Source: Candidatus Pelagibacter sp. (lineage in GTDB: Bacteria; Pseudomonadota; Alphaproteobacteria; Pelagibacterales; Pelagibacteraceae). Taken from it: a stretch of 62,954 nt of DNA. The position numbers were made by a program, and so were the translations under genes. The notes under the pieces are model-generated. The model was not told where the DNA came from, did not search any database, and saw only the letters and a program-made list of their open reading frames with translations. Shown here in pieces: positions 37,753-45,594 of this stretch. Position 1 is the first letter of the stretch. Each line of letters starts with the position of its first letter. The stretch is taken from NCBI GenBank assembly GCA_002689925.1, contig NZIO01000033.1, positions 1 through 62,954 of the forward strand. Reading direction: 5' to 3'.

Positions 37753-39813
37753 TTAATTTTTTGTTTTAATGATATCTTTTACAGATTGTTTTATTATTGA
37801 TGGAAACATATCTTTATTAAATAAAACATTAGTCGACATTGCACATTCAAAAGTACATTTACATTTTGTATCTTTTATTTTTGTTCTTAAGTCTTTCGCT
37901 TGTTTAGATTTAAATATTTCACTTACACTTATTTTAGGATCATTTATATTACCTAAATTATCTTGCAATATTTCGCATGGTTTTAATGATCCATCTTCCA
38001 TTGAAACATAGCTTAAATTTCCAGCAGTGCACGGTGTAACAAATTTTTCTTCTTTAGCTACTGTCAAAATTAAATCTTTTTGTACTTTTTCTTTAGCTTT
38101 AAGAATTAAATTGCTTAACAAACCATAAGATTTTTTAGTTCTTATTTTATCATATTCATTTATAGCTGCTTCATAACCTTGTATTATTTCATCTTTAACT
38201 TTTGGACCATTTAAAGTGTGATGTCGAAATAAATTAATTGAAATAGATGTTGGGTTAAATTCTTCATACAAGCTGTTTATAGTTCCAGGGAAAAATTTAT
38301 AATTATAATCTTGAACAGTAATCACTATATTTACATGTAATTTCTCATAAAGTTTTCCTAATTTTTTTAGTACTTCAAAAGTTTTTCTAAGTTTTTGAAA
38401 AGAATTTTTTCCTCTTATTCGGTCATGAGTTTCTTCTGGCCCATCAATTGAAATAAACACTACAAACAAACCATCTTTAAGATTTTGCATTACTTTTAAG
38501 CAACTAAGATAAGTTTTATTTGTATACCAACCGTTAGTTGGCAGAGAGATTACAACTGGTTTTGCTTCTTTTTTAACTCCAAGAACAATATCACTAAAAT
38601 CTTTTCTGATAAAAGGTTCTCCTCCCGCTAAAGAATACCATAATAAAGGACCACTTTGTTTTGCGGCGTCTATTAAAATTTTTGGATCTAGTTCACCTGG
38701 GTCTGGTTTATTTAATGTGTCTTTATAAAAGCAATGGTCACATCTTAGATTACATCTTCCAGTAATATATTGGATGAGTTGAATAGGTTTTCCATATTTG
38801 AAAACTATTTTTATAAAACAAATTGATAAATCTTTTAATTTTATAAAATAATTGAAGGTATTGTTTATAAATAAAGATACCAAGCTTGTTGCTATAGAAA
38901 AATACGAAACCATTCCCACTATTGATAAAACGACAGTTGAAAAAAAAGATTTTTTAAGATTTTCAAATATTTTTAAATTAAAAAAAGAGGCTATTAAAAT
39001 TGTGCTAAAAAAAGACATTAAAAATAATAAAGAACTATTAAAAAATAAACCAACTAGAAATGAAGATAGCAACAATAAGGGAGCTAAATTTATCCTCCAG
39101 TCAACTAAAGAAGGAACATCTCTAAAAAAATTTATAAAACTTAATCTAGTTTTTGTAAAATTAAAAGTTCGATTGAAAGTTTCTTTTATTAAACTAAAAA
39201 TATTATATTGTTTGTTGTGTAAGGCAGTAAAATTTTTTTCTATATTTACATTCGCATCAAAAACTTTTTGTGCTCTAGTAAAAAAATCTACATCTTCATA
39301 GCTATTAAGATTTTCATTAAATCCACCAACTTGTTTGAAAAAATTTTTATAAATTACAAAATGAGATGATGATGCCAACTTAATATCTTTTTTATTTAGA
39401 ATCAATAATCTATATTTTAATAAATTAGTTAAAAAATTTGCTGTAAAGCTTACTTTATTATTGACATCATAAATGCCTGAATAAATTTTATTTTCAATTA
39501 TTTTATTTTTTATTTCCTTTAAAGCCAATTTACCATTTTCATTTATCTCTACATCTGCGTCGACAAATAATATTAATTCACTTCTGGCTAATTCTGCTCC
39601 AATATTTCTTGCTCTGGCAGCATTAGTTCCTTTTTTTGCATCTATTAATTTAATTTTATCATCTTTATTTGATATTTTATTTTTATTATCTGAATTAATA
39701 ATTAATATTTCATCGACATAATCTTTTATAGAATTTATTGTTGATTCTATTCTTCTATTATCATTTGATGGAATTACAGCACTAATTTTTTTTGGAGTAA
39801 TGTTATTGTTCAT
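37753..39813 (-). CDS. Fusion: GT2 glycosyltransferase, membrane segments, radical SAM/SPASM-like enzyme
   Basis: 686 residues in three parts. Residues 1 to about 230 form a GT-A (family 2) domain with SAVIPSNDNRR at the nucleotide end, KGTNAARARNIGAELA and the metal-binding FVDADVEI (83-90). About three hydrophobic helices follow (roughly 243-316). From about 340 a radical SAM domain carries the 4Fe-4S motif C354-x3-C358-x2-C361 (RCNLRCDHCFY), GGEP, and a SPASM-like tail with TPCTAG, LKPCEI and KCKCTFEC. The fusion suggests transfer of a sugar plus radical modification of a lipid-linked glycan or related substrate. It overlaps the upstream GT2 gene by 11 bases. The reaction is unknown. Confidence 0.85.
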   Translation of the reverse strand: MNNNITPKKISAVIPSNDNRRIESTINSIKDYVDEILIINSDNKNKISNKDDKIKLIDAKKGTNAARARNIGAELARSELILFVDADVEINENGKLALKEIKNKIIENKIYSGIYDVNNKVSFTANFLTNLLKYRLLILNKKDIKLASSSHFVIYKNFFKQVGGFNENLNSYEDVDFFTRAQKVFDANVNIEKNFTALHNKQYNIFSLIKETFNRTFNFTKTRLSFINFFRDVPSLVDWRINLAPLLLLSSFLVGLFFNSSLLFLMSFFSTILIASFFNLKIFENLKKSFFSTVVLSIVGMVSYFSIATSLVSLFINNTFNYFIKLKDLSICFIKIVFKYGKPIQLIQYITGRCNLRCDHCFYKDTLNKPDPGELDPKILIDAAKQSGPLLWYSLAGGEPFIRKDFSDIVLGVKKEAKPVVISLPTNGWYTNKTYLSCLKVMQNLKDGLFVVFISIDGPEETHDRIRGKNSFQKLRKTFEVLKKLGKLYEKLHVNIVITVQDYNYKFFPGTINSLYEEFNPTSISINLFRHHTLNGPKVKDEIIQGYEAAINEYDKIRTKKSYGLLSNLILKAKEKVQKDLILTVAKEEKFVTPCTAGNLSYVSMEDGSLKPCEILQDNLGNINDPKISVSEIFKSKQAKDLRTKIKDTKCKCTFECAMSTNVLFNKDMFPSIIKQSVKDIIKTKN

Positions 39814-40552
39814 TTCTTTTTGATTTTATTACTGATTTTTCATTCATATTAAACCAAGTTGTACAAATACCATAAAAATACCATCTAAGATATGCTGGCA
39901 ACCATTTAAAAATTTTAAATCTACTTGATCCTTCGCTTCTTTCTTCCCATTGCGCTGGCACTTCAGCAATATTCAATCTTAATCTATGACATTTTGCCAA
40001 TAACTCTAAAGAGTATGAAAAACCAACTGTCGATTGCACATTTACTGTATCAAGTAACTTTCTGGAAAACAACCTGAACCCATTACTTGCATCTTTTACA
40101 GGTATACTAGATAGGTAATAAAGTGTAAATGATGCCAATCTTACCAAAATTGACTTAAGAAGTGGACATCCTTTCATAGAACCACCTTCTACAAAGCGAC
40201 TTGCCACAACTACATCATTTCCATTTTTAAATTTTTCAAACATTAAATCTATAATATCACAATTTAAAATATCATCTGCAGGATAAACAATAACGCAATC
40301 TGAATTACTATAATATAACCCTTTTTTAATTGCTGAGCATGGACCTTTGGAAGAATTTTTTACAAACTCTACATCAAATTTAAATTTTTCAATTCTTTCT
40401 TTAAATTTAAAACAATCATCATCATCTTGGTCATAACAAATTAAAACTTTAAAATCTGTTTTTACATATTGCTCTAAAAGATGTAATAATTTTATTAAAT
40501 TTTCACCTTCATTATAAACTGGTATGACAATTTCTAAAGGAAATTTATCCAT
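39803..40552 (-). CDS. GT2 glycosyltransferase (DPM1-like)
   Basis: 249 residues. The GT-A start IVIPVYNEGENLIKLL, the SSKGPCSAIKKGLYYS segment and the metal site VIVYPADDIL mark family 2, and ASNGFRLFSRKLLD with the later PAQWEERSEGSSRFK resembles polyprenyl-phosphate sugar transferases (dolichol-phosphate mannose synthase type). It has no strong C-terminal membrane pair. It overlaps both neighbours on the same strand (8 and 11 bases), so it belongs to one operon with the RmlD-like gene and the radical SAM fusion. Confidence 0.88.
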   Translation of the reverse strand: MDKFPLEIVIPVYNEGENLIKLLHLLEQYVKTDFKVLICYDQDDDDCFKFKERIEKFKFDVEFVKNSSKGPCSAIKKGLYYSNSDCVIVYPADDILNCDIIDLMFEKFKNGNDVVVASRFVEGGSMKGCPLLKSILVRLASFTLYYLSSIPVKDASNGFRLFSRKLLDTVNVQSTVGFSYSLELLAKCHRLRLNIAEVPAQWEERSEGSSRFKIFKWLPAYLRWYFYGICTTWFNMNEKSVIKSKRNEQ

Positions 40553-41291
40553 TTTTTTTTAATTTATTAAATAAATTTAAATTCATTGACGCATCTTTTG
40601 CCATAAAAAATTTTAATTTTTTAATAAGTTTAATTCTTTTTGTAGGCATAATATCTTTTTTATGTTTTTTATAATTGTGATAATCTGATTGTCTTTTTGA
40701 TCCAACATTAACTATTCCAATAAAATTAGAATATAGTAATAATTTTATACTATCCACCAATTCATTTACCTCCATCTTTGAAGTAAAAATATCATTAGCA
40801 GATTTCTTATATTTAATTTTGTCTTTATTATAAAACCTTGTTCTAATAATTACATAATTTTTCAAGAATTTTACCAGATATTCTGAAGTCATTTTAGTCC
40901 AGTCATAGTTGTTATGAGGCCAAAGTTCACTTTTTTCAGAATAATTTCCATTAGTAGATTTATAAACAGCATCAGTTGATATATGTATAAATCTTAAATT
41001 ATTTTTTTTTTTTAAAACTTCTTTGACTAAATTAAAAGTTCCATCAACATTTACTTTTATAGCTTTTGATGGATTGGCTTCACACTCTTTAATTCTAGCA
41101 ATTGCTGCACAATTTATTATAGTTTTAATATTCATCCTATTTAGAATTTTGGCTATACTTTTAGAATCTTCTATATTCAAAATTTTTTTATTTGGTGCGT
41201 ATAAATTTTTAAATATTTTAGATTTTATAATAGAGGAACCTAAGTTACCACTACCACCAAGAAGAAGTATTTTATCTTTTTTATTTTTCAT
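40545..41291 (-). CDS. RmlD-like sugar-nucleotide reductase (SDR)
   Basis: 248 residues. The NAD(P) loop is LLLGGSGNLGSSII (about 9-22). NCAAIARIKECEANPSKAIKVNVDGT and the catalytic HISTDAVY plus YDWTK (the YxxxK pair) match the dTDP-4-dehydrorhamnose reductase family. It is shorter than RmlD (about 290), with an odd lysine-rich end, so the exact substrate is uncertain. It is the first gene of the minus-strand sugar operon and lies 57 bases downstream of tRNA-Ser. Confidence 0.82.
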   Translation of the reverse strand: MKNKKDKILLLGGSGNLGSSIIKSKIFKNLYAPNKKILNIEDSKSIAKILNRMNIKTIINCAAIARIKECEANPSKAIKVNVDGTFNLVKEVLKKKNNLRFIHISTDAVYKSTNGNYSEKSELWPHNNYDWTKMTSEYLVKFLKNYVIIRTRFYNKDKIKYKKSANDIFTSKMEVNELVDSIKLLLYSNFIGIVNVGSKRQSDYHNYKKHKKDIMPTKRIKLIKKLKFFMAKDASMNLNLFNKLKKNG

Positions 41292-41348: not shown

Positions 41349-41438
41349 TGGCGGAGAGAGTGGGATTCGAACCCACGGTACCTTTGACAGTACACACACT
41401 TTCCAAGCGTGCTCCTTAAACCACTCGGACACCTCTCC
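41349..41438 (-). tRNA. tRNA-Ser (anticodon GGA)
   Basis: The minus strand gives a class II tRNA of 90 bases: acceptor GGAGAGG paired with the end before CCA, anticodon stem CACGC/GTGTG with loop TTGGAAA (anticodon GGA), a long variable arm, and T arm GTGGG-TTCGAAT-CCCAC. CCA is encoded. Its 5' end is the base right after the stop codon of the methyltransferase gene, so it must be cut from a shared transcript or have a promoter inside that gene. Confidence 0.96.
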
Positions 41439-42224
41439 TTATAATTTTATTTTATCTAAAAGAGTATTATAAAAATATTTTATGTATCTTAAAATATATT
41501 TAGAATATCTCAAAAATAATCTTATTTTATAAAAATTTTTCTTTTTTATTGGCAACATGTTATTTTTTACTATGTTGCTTAATTCATCATTTATCTCTTT
41601 TTTCACTACTATCAAGTTATGATAAAAATGTATTTCAGTAATATTTTTTGAAAAATAATCTGCTTTATAAAATGGATTATCAAGTTCTTGATAATTAATT
41701 TTATCTATTATTTTTTTAAAGTAATTTATAGCTGTCTTGTCTTTTTTTAAATAAAAGCTATCACCTCGGTATCCACTCCAATAAGAAGTTTGAACATCTT
41801 CTATAAAATAATACCCACCATTCTTTAAAAATTTAAATGTATATTCAAATGTTTTAATAATATCTTTACTTTGATGACTTCCGTCATCTATTATAAAATC
41901 AACATCTCCTATTTTTTGAAATATTTTTTCTAAGGCAAATTTATCAGTTTGGGAACATTTGAATATTTTTGTTTTATTTGTTTGAAGAGGGCTTTTGTCA
42001 AACATATCAATGGCATAAATTTTTCCATTCGGAAAATATTCCTCCCAAACTTTAAGCGAGTTACCACCAGATTTTGGATCATGGTATCCACCAACACCAA
42101 CCTCAAACAAGGAAATCTCTTTATCTCTGGATGATATAAAATACTTCTCATAAACCTTTATATAGTTATGGTCATTAACTTTATCAGTATCATGTTTTTT
42201 AGCTATATTTTCTAGATCAGTCAC
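41439..42224 (-). CDS. Class I SAM-dependent methyltransferase (sugar O-methyltransferase-like)
   Basis: 261 residues. After an N-terminal KKHDTDKVNDHNYIKVYEKYF segment, the SAM-binding site is LFEVGVGGYHDPKSGGNSL (about 39-57), with IYAIDMFDKS, then IIDDGSHQSKDIIKTFEYTF and the FIEDVQTSYWSGYRGDS block. That layout is seen in MycE-like macrolide-sugar and other hexose O-methyltransferases. In this sugar island it probably methylates a surface saccharide, though that is inferred. It is divergent from rmlB and abuts tRNA-Ser. Confidence 0.82.
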   Translation of the reverse strand: MTDLENIAKKHDTDKVNDHNYIKVYEKYFISSRDKEISLFEVGVGGYHDPKSGGNSLKVWEEYFPNGKIYAIDMFDKSPLQTNKTKIFKCSQTDKFALEKIFQKIGDVDFIIDDGSHQSKDIIKTFEYTFKFLKNGGYYFIEDVQTSYWSGYRGDSFYLKKDKTAINYFKKIIDKINYQELDNPFYKADYFSKNITEIHFYHNLIVVKKEINDELSNIVKNNMLPIKKKNFYKIRLFLRYSKYILRYIKYFYNTLLDKIKL

Positions 42225-42301: not shown

Positions 42302-43330
42302 ATGAAAAAAAAAATTCTTATTACTGGAGGCTCAGGTTTTATTGGGACCAATTTAGTAAATTATTTATCAAATAAAGGTTATAATATTACCAATTTAGAT
42401 AAAATTTCTTATGCTTCCACACCAGAAATTTTTAAAAAAAATGTAAAAAGACAAAATTATAGGTTTTTAAAAATAGATCTTGCAAATAAAAATAAAGTTT
42501 TGAAAATTTTTAAAAAGATAAAACCCAATATAATCATAAACCTTGCAGCAGAAACACACGTAGATAGATCTATAGATAATTCTGATGAATTTATTAAAAG
42601 TAATATTTTAGGAACTTATAATTTGATTAATATAATTAACAAAACTTTAAGCCGTAAAGAAATTAAAAAATTGAAATTTATACATATTTCTACAGATGAG
42701 GTATATGGTAGCAATAAATTATCTCCGTCTAAAGAAAATGATCAATATAACCCCAGCTCTCCATATTCAGCTTCCAAAGCAAGTGCAAATCACCTTGTAA
42801 AATCTTTTGGAATAACTTTTAATATCCCAATAACAATTTTAAATTTTTGTAATAATTATGGCCCATATCAATTTCCTGAAAAATTTATTCCAACAGTTAT
42901 AATAAATGCATTAAAAAAAAAGGTAATTCCAATTTATGGCAATGGTAAAAATATACGTGAATGGATATTTGTTGAAGATTGTTGCAAAGCTATAGAATCT
43001 ACATTTTCAAAAGTTAAATTTGGTAATGAATATAATATTGGATCAGGTTATAGAACTGATAATTTAACAATAGCAAAGATGATTTGTAAATTATTAGGTA
43101 AAGTTGAAAAGTATGATTTTAAAAAGTTAATTCGTTATGTAAAAGATAGACCAGGTCATGATTTTAGATATGCATTGAATTCTTCGAAATTCAAAAATAA
43201 AACTAAATGGAAACCTAAGACAAGCATAGAAAATGGTCTTAAAGAAACAATTAATTGGTATATAAAAAATAAAAAATGGTTTAAATATACTCAAAAAAAA
43301 TATTCAGGTAGTAGGTTAGGAAAAATATGA
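42302..43330 (+). CDS. rmlB: dTDP-glucose 4,6-dehydratase
   Basis: 342 residues. The extended SDR fold starts ILITGGSGFIGTNLVNYL and has AAETHVDRSIDNSDEFIKSNI, HISTDEVYGS, the catalytic YSASKAS (YxxxK), NNYGPYQFPEKFIP and a late PGHDFRYALN. It converts dTDP-glucose to dTDP-4-keto-6-deoxyglucose, the branch point for 6-deoxy sugars. It is first in a four-gene operon with 4-, 1- and 11-base overlaps between successive genes. Confidence 0.94.
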   Translation: MKKKILITGGSGFIGTNLVNYLSNKGYNITNLDKISYASTPEIFKKNVKRQNYRFLKIDLANKNKVLKIFKKIKPNIIINLAAETHVDRSIDNSDEFIKSNILGTYNLINIINKTLSRKEIKKLKFIHISTDEVYGSNKLSPSKENDQYNPSSPYSASKASANHLVKSFGITFNIPITILNFCNNYGPYQFPEKFIPTVIINALKKKVIPIYGNGKNIREWIFVEDCCKAIESTFSKVKFGNEYNIGSGYRTDNLTIAKMICKLLGKVEKYDFKKLIRYVKDRPGHDFRYALNSSKFKNKTKWKPKTSIENGLKETINWYIKNKKWFKYTQKKYSGSRLGKI

Positions 43331-44193
43331 TTAACAAAGGTATAATTCTAGCAGGAGGCATGGGAACTAGACTTAGTCCATTAACAAAAGTTATAAACAA
43401 ACAACTCCTTCCTTTATATGACAAGCCTTTAATTTTTTACCCATTATCTGTTCTGATGTTATCTGGTATTAAAAATATCCTTATAATCACAAATCCTAAT
43501 GAAAATAATATTTATAAAAAAATTTTAGGAGATGGAACTAGATTTGGAATAAAAATTTCTTATAAAGAACAAGCAAAACCAAATGGCTTACCAGAAGCTT
43601 TTATATTAGGAAAAAAATTTATTGGAAAAGATGGAGTTGCTCTTATTTTGGGAGATAATTTTTTCTATGGAGAAGGATTTACTAAAAGATTAAAAAATGG
43701 ATTAAAAAAAAACAAGGGTGCAACAATTTTTGCTTACGCTGTGAACAATGCTTCAAATTATGGAGTTGTGAAAGTTAATAATAATAATAAAGTTTTAAAT
43801 ATAGTTGAAAAACCAAAAAAATATATTTCAAATTTAGCTATAACAGGCCTTTATTATTTTAATAACAAGGTAATTAGATTTGCAGAAAAACTTAAGCCAT
43901 CAAAGAGAAAAGAACTTGAAATTACTGACTTAATTAAGAAATATAAAAGGGATAAACAATTAAAAGTAGAGCTCATAGGTAGAGGCGGATCATGGCTAGA
44001 TGCAGGAACAATAAAAGATTTATTTGATGCTTCTACGTTTGTATCAACAGTTGAGAAAAGACAAGGCTTTAAAATTGCATGCTTAGAAGAAATTGCATTA
44101 AGAAATAAATGGATAACAAAAAATTTAATTATTAAATCAATAAAATTTTATGGAAATTGTGATTATTCTAACTATTTAAAAAAACTTATTTAA
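43327..44193 (+). CDS. rmlA: Glucose-1-phosphate thymidylyltransferase
   Basis: 288 residues, normal length. It makes dTDP-glucose from dTTP and glucose-1-phosphate. The N-terminal GIILAGGMGTRLSPLTKVINKQ is the nucleotidyltransferase signature, followed by PLSVLMLSGIKNILIIT, LILGDNFFYGEGF, and the catalytic/metal region VVKVNN...VEKPKKYISNLAITGLYYF and GRGGSWLDAGT. It overlaps rmlB by 4 bases (ATGA) and its stop shares a base with the next start. Confidence 0.95.
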   Translation: MINKGIILAGGMGTRLSPLTKVINKQLLPLYDKPLIFYPLSVLMLSGIKNILIITNPNENNIYKKILGDGTRFGIKISYKEQAKPNGLPEAFILGKKFIGKDGVALILGDNFFYGEGFTKRLKNGLKKNKGATIFAYAVNNASNYGVVKVNNNNKVLNIVEKPKKYISNLAITGLYYFNNKVIRFAEKLKPSKRKELEITDLIKKYKRDKQLKVELIGRGGSWLDAGTIKDLFDASTFVSTVEKRQGFKIACLEEIALRNKWITKNLIIKSIKFYGNCDYSNYLKKLI

Positions 44194-45068
44194 TGATAAA
44201 AAAATATGTGATTACTGGTGCAGCAGGATTTATTGGAAAAAATTTAGTTAAAGATTTGCTTTCACAAAAAAAAAGTAAGATTTATTTAATATTAAGAAAA
44301 TCTAAGAAAAATCAAATTTTATCAAAAAAATTTACAAAAGAACCAAATTATATTCCTATTTTTTTTAAAGACTCAAATGAATTAAAAAAAAAATTTAGAA
44401 AAATAAATGCTGACGTTGTAATAAATCTTGCTACCCACTATGTAGATAAACATAATTTTGAAGATTTGGAAAAGATTGTAAGTTCAAATATATTATTTTG
44501 CTCACAAATCTTAGAACTTTCCTGCGAAAGAAAAATAAAGAGTTTTATAAATATTTGCTCCGTTATGCAATTATATACCCACAATAAATATCCTTTAAAT
44601 TTTTATGCAGCTTCAAAAGATTCTTTTAAAAATATAGGATCCTTTTATTCAAAAATTTATGGTATAAAATTTTTTAATTTATTTATTGGAGATACTTATG
44701 GTGATAATGATGAAAGAAAAAAAATCATTCCAATAATTTTAAAAAATTATAAAAAAAACAAAACAACAAAAATTATGAAAAGAAAACTTGAATTAAATAT
44801 CCTTCATGTAAAAGATATAATAAATGCTATTTCAATTATTTTATGGAAAAAGATTAAACCTGGAGACTATTTAGTTCGCTCAAAAATTAATATTAAACTA
44901 CATAGATTGATCTCTAATATAAATAAAGTACTAAAAAGAAAAATAAAAATAATATGGGGAAATAGTAAATTTATTAAAGTTAGAAAAATAAATATGAGAT
45001 TATTGCCAGGATGGAAACAAAATTTTAATATAGAAACAGAAATAAAAAAATATCTTAATGAAAATTAA
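44193..45068 (+). CDS. SDR-family sugar-nucleotide reductase or epimerase in the RmlD position
   Basis: 291 residues. NAD(P) loop VITGAAGFIGKNLVKDLL, then VVINLATHYVDKHNFED, NICSVMQLYTHN and catalytic YAASK. It is not a typical RmlD; the sequence is nearer to the CDP-abequose/paratose synthase and NDP-6-deoxyhexose 4-reductase type enzymes. As rmlB, rmlA and rmlC surround it, it probably reduces the 4-keto group of a dTDP-6-deoxy sugar, giving something other than or in addition to L-rhamnose. An RmlD-like gene on the other strand (40545-41291) may be an alternative reductase. Confidence 0.78.
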   Translation: MIKKYVITGAAGFIGKNLVKDLLSQKKSKIYLILRKSKKNQILSKKFTKEPNYIPIFFKDSNELKKKFRKINADVVINLATHYVDKHNFEDLEKIVSSNILFCSQILELSCERKIKSFINICSVMQLYTHNKYPLNFYAASKDSFKNIGSFYSKIYGIKFFNLFIGDTYGDNDERKKIIPIILKNYKKNKTTKIMKRKLELNILHVKDIINAISIILWKKIKPGDYLVRSKINIKLHRLISNINKVLKRKIKIIWGNSKFIKVRKINMRLLPGWKQNFNIETEIKKYLNEN

Positions 45069-45594
45069 AAAAACAAAATTTAAAAACTTGATAGTTATTA
45101 AACATAAGAGAAATGTTGATAAAAGAGGTAGCCTTAGAGAAACTTATATTAAAAAAAAAATTAATTGGGACAATTTTTTATTAGAATATGCAACTACTTC
45201 TAAAAAAAATGTTCTTAGAGGATTACATTTTCAATACAAGAATCAACAAGCTAAGCTAGTTACTGTTTTAAAAGGAAAAATCTTGGATGTAGTAGTTGAT
45301 TTAAGAAAAAATTCGAAAACTTTTGGCAAACATTATTCTATAATTCTTTCAGAAAAAAACTGTACATCGCTGTACATACCTAGAGGTTTTGCCCATGGTT
45401 ATTATAGTTATGATAAACTAAATATAATTTACTATAAATTGTCAGATTATTATAAACCACAATATGAAAATGGCATTATTTGGAATGATAAAAAATTAGG
45501 AATTAAATGGCCCAATAAAAAGCCCATTTTATCAAAAAAAGATGTAAAATTTGGATCTTTAGCTAATTTTAGCGAAAATTTTAAGGGACTTTAA
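45058..45594 (+). CDS. rmlC: dTDP-4-dehydrorhamnose 3,5-epimerase
   Basis: 178 residues. The cupin-fold enzyme epimerises dTDP-4-keto-6-deoxyglucose at C3 and C5. It shows the family motifs RGSLRETY, NVLRGLHFQYKNQQAKLVT (catalytic histidine in LHFQ), ILDVVVDLRKNSKTFG, YIPRGFAHGYYS and YYKPQYENGIIWND. It overlaps the preceding gene by 11 bases and ends the operon. About 200 bases with a hairpin follow before the small membrane-protein genes. Confidence 0.93.
   Translation: MKIKKTKFKNLIVIKHKRNVDKRGSLRETYIKKKINWDNFLLEYATTSKKNVLRGLHFQYKNQQAKLVTVLKGKILDVVVDLRKNSKTFGKHYSIILSEKNCTSLYIPRGFAHGYYSYDKLNIIYYKLSDYYKPQYENGIIWNDKKLGIKWPNKKPILSKKDVKFGSLANFSENFKGL

Follow-up and report, generated by a model that had tools for sequence, protein, structure and literature searches.

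Positions 37,753 to 41,291 of a 62,954-nucleotide stretch of Candidatus Pelagibacter sp. DNA (assembly GCA_002689925.1, contig NZIO01000033.1; the full stretch is called the window below) contain a gene whose product joins a family 2 glycosyltransferase (GT2), a membrane segment and a radical S-adenosylmethionine (SAM) domain. Comparison of its homologues indicates that the evolutionary unit is a GT2/radical SAM gene pair that has long been inherited together and is ancestral to the fusion. The fusion is no isolated case: the two genes are found side by side in many genomes, and have fused independently on at least two occasions.

Open reading frames (ORFs) were called around each radical SAM homologue and scored with profiles of both halves of the fusion (L and G numbers below denote loci and genomes). 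With the five fusions and a contig-edge fragment (L040) set aside, 35 unfused homologues can be judged, and in 31 of them a GT2/membrane gene of ~330 aa is the immediate neighbour on the same strand, against a chance expectation of ~2.7 in 35 for a gene picked at random from these loci. When only loci added after profile construction are counted, an adjacent GT2/membrane gene is present in 13 of 16 (~1.3 expected). The two genes are separated by gaps of 0–77 nt or overlap, and the GT2/membrane gene usually lies downstream of the radical SAM gene. It lies upstream at four loci (L044, L051, L108 and L113), two of which (L044 and L108) show an overlap of 1–4 nt; this is the arrangement from which a fusion would arise, by loss of the stop codon plus a frame adjustment.

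Trees of the radical SAM and glycosyltransferase (GT) sequences recover the same groups (Mantel r = 0.82, p 1e-4, for 31 pairs; r = 0.84 for 26 unfused pairs), a congruence to which shared host descent also contributes. Because the neighbours of the pair are otherwise varied, with G1125 having none in common, the pair behaves as a self-contained module that is used in many glycan islands.

The fused architecture recurs outside the window. Among the 297 genomes of the family searched, G073 encodes a full-length homologue (38% identity, 695-aa ORF) and G088 a contig-edge fragment (51% identity), while an order-level search revealed a full-length homologue in G1125 (47% identity, 674-aa ORF). A further one occurs in G319, from another order of the same class (43% identity, 683-aa ORF), and the distant proteobacterium G773, elsewhere in the phylum, carries a 741-aa fusion. 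In the trees, a single clade unites the fusions of the window, G1125, G319 and G073 with the G088 sequence. The fusion of G773 lies outside it and groups with the unfused pair L051 (support 0.97), which indicates that GT2–radical SAM fusion arose at least twice. That an assembly or frame error merely joined two genes is vanishingly improbable. The source genome is indeed split into 73 contigs with an estimated contamination of 7.36%, but the same continuous architecture is present in G1125, G319 and G073 (the latter in 3 contigs and 99% complete), the ORFs have no internal stop, and a confident single fold is predicted; on the strength of the independent full-length homologues we rejected an artefact. 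Within its own genome (1.6 Mb) the fusion gene has only one match. As for a mobile-element origin, tblastn against phage and plasmid records yielded only generic radical SAM matches; those listed have ~21–32% identity and each cover less than 80% of the query. Viral contigs scanned with profiles gave 14 loci, of which two had longer matches (27–32%), and the only results from a scan of genome contigs were two distant proteins, a GT and a radical SAM protein (Nitrospirae, beside genes for cytochrome c assembly).

The window protein is, as initially described, a single GT2, membrane and radical SAM chain, and the catalytic motifs are intact in both halves. Pfam assigns GT2 to residues 16–204 (PF10111, 5e-13; PF00535, 5e-9) and Radical_SAM to residues 350–488 (PF04055, E 1.5e-15, 58 bits against a cut-off of 29.5). 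In the GT half, D85, D87 and E173 are kept in 15 of 15 aligned rows and H199 is near-invariant; the PF00535-type domain, the DXD motif and Foldseek matches to GT-A enzymes place it in GT2, with a GT-A fold. In the radical SAM half, the CX3CX2C cysteines (C354, C358 and C361), parts of the GGEP motif, SxD and HxxxR are invariant across 18 sequences. Since the listed NCBIfam matches of the fusion all fall far below curated cut-offs, no curated family or reaction is assigned to it, in agreement with the earlier statement that no named pathway is known to contain it.

AlphaFold2 predicts a single confident fold (pLDDT 91.6, pTM 0.92) that includes the junction, where one helix (residues 286–338) runs into the radical SAM domain. 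The input was a 52-row alignment with ~20–30 residues misplaced in some GT rows, and the predicted linker rests mainly on its five fused rows. Comparison with structures in the PDB returns only the separate halves, matched by GT-A enzymes and by radical SAM enzymes (anSME, SkfB, DesII and BlsE), respectively. Among the matches listed, the best target-normalised template-modelling score of the radical SAM half is to the sugar enzyme BlsE (0.67).

The same 18 radical SAM sequences share five invariant C-terminal cysteines (CX12GX4C...CXCTXEC). The SPASM motif consists of seven cysteines (CX9-15GX4C-gap-CX2CX5CX3C-gap-C) and binds two auxiliary clusters, and a twitch is a truncated SPASM that binds one (PMC6231123). 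We therefore rejected a full SPASM assignment: CX12GX4C is followed only by CXCX3C, giving five cysteines instead of seven, and on this sequence pattern the auxiliary region is twitch-like. The three core cysteines named in the initial annotation stand, and its term 'SPASM-like' is replaced. PF13186 has no match in the window protein and falls just under its cut-off in L033, the G073 fusion locus. The twitch of SkfB aligns to the radical SAM half through the same first cysteine pair and the CXC, and the C-terminal cluster domain of BtrN matches the radical SAM profile. Full ligation of a cluster takes four cysteines, which leaves one to spare. Speculatively, it could act as a hydrogen donor by analogy with the epimerase NeoN, in which Cys249 has this role (PMC10991966).

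Hydropathy confines the hydrophobic segments of the fusion to residues 240–316, and most fused and unfused forms have three such segments after the GT domain. In the unfused GTs, segments 1 and 2 are joined by a loop with almost no charge, whereas Lys/Arg residues abound both in the loop joining segments 2 and 3 and in the C-terminal tail, so that this second loop and the tail are read as cytoplasmic by the positive-inside rule. The third segment is therefore probably not a complete crossing, and the radical SAM domain would lie in the cytoplasm. Radical SAM clusters and SAM itself require a cytoplasmic location.

The reading that we favour is that the fusion is a bifunctional membrane glycan builder, in which the GT half places a sugar on a membrane acceptor and the radical SAM half then edits it. 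It is supported by the pairing in 31 of 35 homologues, the congruent trees, the two fusions, the invariant motifs of both halves and the confident domain arrangement, and we judge its chance of being right to be slightly below even. A sugar substrate for the radical SAM half is favoured by the matches to BlsE and to BtrN, an aminocyclitol dehydrogenase. On the cytoplasmic face, the GT half would use a nucleotide sugar to glycosylate an acceptor anchored in the membrane, probably polyprenyl-phosphate or a growing lipid-linked glycan, while the helical linker would hold the radical SAM half over the same lipid. This half would generate a 5'-deoxyadenosyl radical, abstract a hydrogen at one of the carbons of the sugar just added, and use the auxiliary cluster to finish either an epimerisation or the oxidation of an alcohol to a ketone; these two reactions are a guess by analogy with BtrN, NeoN and HygY. 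In the window, the RmlD-like reductase encoded in the same operon could then reduce the keto-sugar, and would suit such an oxidation–reduction pair though it is not a general partner, and a second GT2 (GT2b), similar to dolichol-phosphate mannose (DPM) synthase, may supply or handle a polyprenyl-phosphate sugar. An unusual sugar in a surface glycan would result.

The lipid-linked sugar substrate of the initial annotation stands as likely, from gene context. Immediately preceding the G073 fusion are genes for a GMC oxidoreductase and for a UbiA protein that resembles decaprenyl-phosphate phosphoribosyltransferase (6069-8740 of L033; gaps of ≤4 nt), perhaps a DprE1-like route in SAR11. Large proteins with 7–10 hydrophobic segments (GT-C-like), one of them a PMT_2 match, adjoin six unfused pairs (L038, L041, L042, L043, L051 and L097). 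Together with GT2b, these neighbours are independent hints at polyprenyl-phosphate sugars. A wider claim is that GT2 plus twitch radical SAM forms a new bifunctional class that rewrites a carrier-bound sugar before its release, and that this class descends from the unfused pair, which is widespread in surface-glycan islands of SAR11 and of other proteobacteria; we regard this as possible, and as clearly more probably wrong than right.

Known systems contain parts of this scheme. In hopanoid biosynthesis, HpnI attaches N-acetylglucosamine to bacteriohopanetetrol; after deacetylation by HpnK, the cyclitol ether is formed by HpnJ, a radical SAM enzyme (PMC12583986). As proposed for the fusion, glycosylation of a lipid by a GT is thus followed by rearrangement of the attached sugar by a radical SAM enzyme, but the Hpn enzymes are separate proteins with a hopanoid acceptor, and HpnJ belongs to a different radical SAM family. 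No hopanoid biosynthesis gene is found among the annotated neighbours of the fusions, and HpnJ is absent from the 25 best NCBIfam matches. DprE1/DprE2/UbiA and three-component PPPRS/flippase/GT-C systems with an epimerase also alter sugar identity at, or close to, the stage of the lipid-linked donor; in the latter, polyprenyl-phosphoribose is the donor and the epimerase dictates which pentofuranose is incorporated (PMC11127046). The UbiA and oxidoreductase genes beside the G073 fusion resemble these polyprenyl-phosphate pentose systems, which however employ flavin and NAD(P) enzymes rather than radical SAM and contain no GT2 fusion. BtrN and HygY combine a radical SAM core with a twitch-type auxiliary region, like the radical SAM half, and the dehydrogenase BtrN and the epimerases HygY and NeoN act on carbohydrate-like substrates (HygY and NeoN are likened by description, not by sequence). 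In contrast to these soluble single enzymes of antibiotic pathways, the fusion is membrane-bound, its family is paired with or fused to a GT, and it has five conserved auxiliary cysteines with CXCX3C.

Several observations weigh against the editing of a lipid-linked sugar by such a pair. Four unfused radical SAM homologues (L031, L094, L095 and L101) have no adjacent GT. In sequence, the PDB entry nearest to the radical SAM half is SkfB, a peptide maturase, and the GT half has no close characterised relative, its best matches being chondroitin synthase and GalT1, which are not lipid-acceptor enzymes. The three hydrophobic segments, if all were full membrane crossings, would place the radical SAM domain outside the cell. 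Finally, orthologues of GT2b and the RmlD-like protein are not beside the G1125 or G073 fusions and hence are not general partners. It is conceivable, if rather unlikely, that the order is reversed, with the acceptor, either the preceding sugar or a lipid head group, being modified by the radical SAM half before the GT glycosylates the modified site. This fits the same pairing evidence, unfused loci have either gene first, and the radical SAM gene of L031 has no GT neighbour, so that modification may stand alone. Editing after transfer is favoured because the carbohydrate epimerase NeoN acts on an aminoglycoside that is already glycosylated (PMC10991966).

The two halves could also act on different molecules of one pathway, the radical SAM half making or modifying a free nucleotide sugar for subsequent use by the GT, as the fold match to DesII, a TDP-sugar enzyme, and the nearby rmlB/rmlA/rmlC genes would allow. 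A soluble substrate does not explain repeated fusion to a membrane GT, and the sugar-supplying neighbours are not conserved; we consider this arrangement unlikely. Glycosylation and radical modification of a peptide or protein, as in mycofactocin- or sublancin-like systems, would account for the radical SAM profile matching SkfB, 5wgg and anSME best and for the GT profile reaching SunS, the sublancin S-glycosyltransferase (2.6e-8). SkfB, a sactisynthase, likewise has a twitch with CXC and five C-terminal cysteines, yet it acts on a peptide and has neither a GT nor a membrane segment, and no precursor gene is seen here. There is room for such a gene neither in the operon nor between the pair genes (the rest of the genome was not searched), and for lack of this space we disfavour a maturase of ribosomally synthesised and post-translationally modified peptides. 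The twitch in place of SPASM, the membrane anchoring and the glycan-type neighbours in many loci also speak against a peptide substrate, which we hold to be distinctly improbable; the fusion scores 44.8 bits against the MftC model, whose cut-off is 265.

Each half on its own belongs to a known family, and other glycan clusters also contain radical SAM genes, an example being the radical SAM/GT/epimerase/rfbC block of a Brachyspira plasmid (PMC4267127). A literature search, which most subscription journals lay outside, returned no account of a GT/radical SAM fusion, and novelty is claimed without a UniProt-scale architecture search. SAR11 are among the most abundant bacteria of the ocean; their surface glycans are chemically poorly known and a likely contact point for phages. 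Conservation of the GT/radical SAM pair and its fusion on at least two occasions link the two functions strongly, and lead to the concrete prediction that a radical-edited sugar is made on the membrane. If true, this would extend radical SAM chemistry to assembly-line glycan building and provide a searchable signature for unusual sugars. The question thereby shifts from a single odd fusion to the reaction of a paired family.

In the window, the three ORFs lie exactly where the initial annotation had placed them and overlap as one unit, GT2b sharing 11 nt with the fusion and 8 nt with the RmlD-like gene. GT2b (PF00535, E 1.9e-16) has the DPM synthase 5mlz as its best PDB match (E 8e-20, residues 5–224), a match that spans the full catalytic domain and supports homology with the DPM family; many DPM synthase-like enzymes have C-terminal membrane helices, whereas GT2b has no hydrophobic segment. 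The RmlD-like protein (PF04321, E 1.2e-27) contains a YDWTK active-site motif, but reaches only 72.8 bits against the 224-bit cut-off of TIGR01214, over its N-terminal part, and is not identified as a dTDP-4-dehydrorhamnose reductase. Orthologues of GT2b (60% identity) and of the RmlD-like protein (55% identity) accompany the fusion only in G319, and we therefore rejected the three-gene operon of the initial annotation as a conserved unit. Even in G319 the gene order is unlike that of the window, and the set is interrupted by a gene for a nucleotide-sugar dehydrogenase; beside this fusion there is also a TylF-type methyltransferase, along with a weak match to GT87.

Table 1. Positions of the fusion, its domains and neighbouring features in the window (residue numbers refer to the fusion protein; AF2, AlphaFold2; SDR, short-chain dehydrogenase/reductase).
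Feature	Position	Strand	Basis
GT2-membrane-radical SAM/twitch fusion, 686 aa	37753..39813	-	ORF, Pfam, AF2, full-length homologues
Twitch-like auxiliary cluster region, C595, C613, C651, C653, C657 (CX12GX4C...CXCTXECA)	37834..38040	-	Five invariant Cys, SkfB alignment, BtrN match
Radical SAM core, residues ~345-530	38224..38781	-	PF04055, conserved CNxxCxxC, GGEP motif, SxD, HxxxR
CNLRCDHC motif, C354/C358/C361	38731..38754	-	Invariant in radical SAM alignment
Hydrophobic hairpin 239-281 and long helix 286-338, joint of GT and radical SAM halves	38800..39099	-	Hydropathy, AF2, charge pattern
GT-A glycosyltransferase domain, residues 10-204	39202..39786	-	PF10111/PF00535, conserved D85, D87, E173, H199
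DXD motif D85-A-D87 of GT domain	39553..39561	-	Both Asp invariant, 15 GT rows
Second GT2 (GT2b), 249 aa, DPM-synthase-like	39803..40552	-	PF00535, PDB match 5mlz, G319 orthologue
RmlD-like short extended SDR, 248 aa	40545..41291	-	PF04321, G319 orthologue
tRNA-Ser(gga)	41349..41438	-	
Probable SAM methyltransferase, 261 aa, upstream of tRNA	41439..42224	-	No Pfam or NCBIfam match
rmlB, rmlA, unassigned SDR in the place of rmlD, rmlC	42302..45594	+	

The tRNA-Ser gene stands 57 nt before the first gene of the operon and is a possible insertion point of an island; an empty insertion site was not shown, as in four relatives the neighbouring peroxiredoxin gene does not occupy a syntenic position. 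Membership of the adjacent probable methyltransferase in the system is uncertain; presumably, it resembles macrolide-sugar O-methyltransferases. The dTDP-6-deoxysugar set beyond it may make a sugar other than rhamnose.

Further features were seen at the loci of unfused homologues. L031 (7965-9032) is a Nitrospirae radical SAM homologue near ResB, cytochrome c assembly and B12 radical SAM genes, and the homologue of L095 (7641-9161) is 506 aa long, with ~150 extra N-terminal residues. At L038 (10414-13737) and at L041, the pair is followed by related genes for B12-binding radical SAM enzymes, so that one glycan island encodes several enzymes of this superfamily. An ApbC/NUBPL-like iron-sulfur carrier (PF10609) is encoded directly before the radical SAM gene at L048 (8636-9433), and also at L047; it could help to load the radical SAM clusters, or be there by chance.

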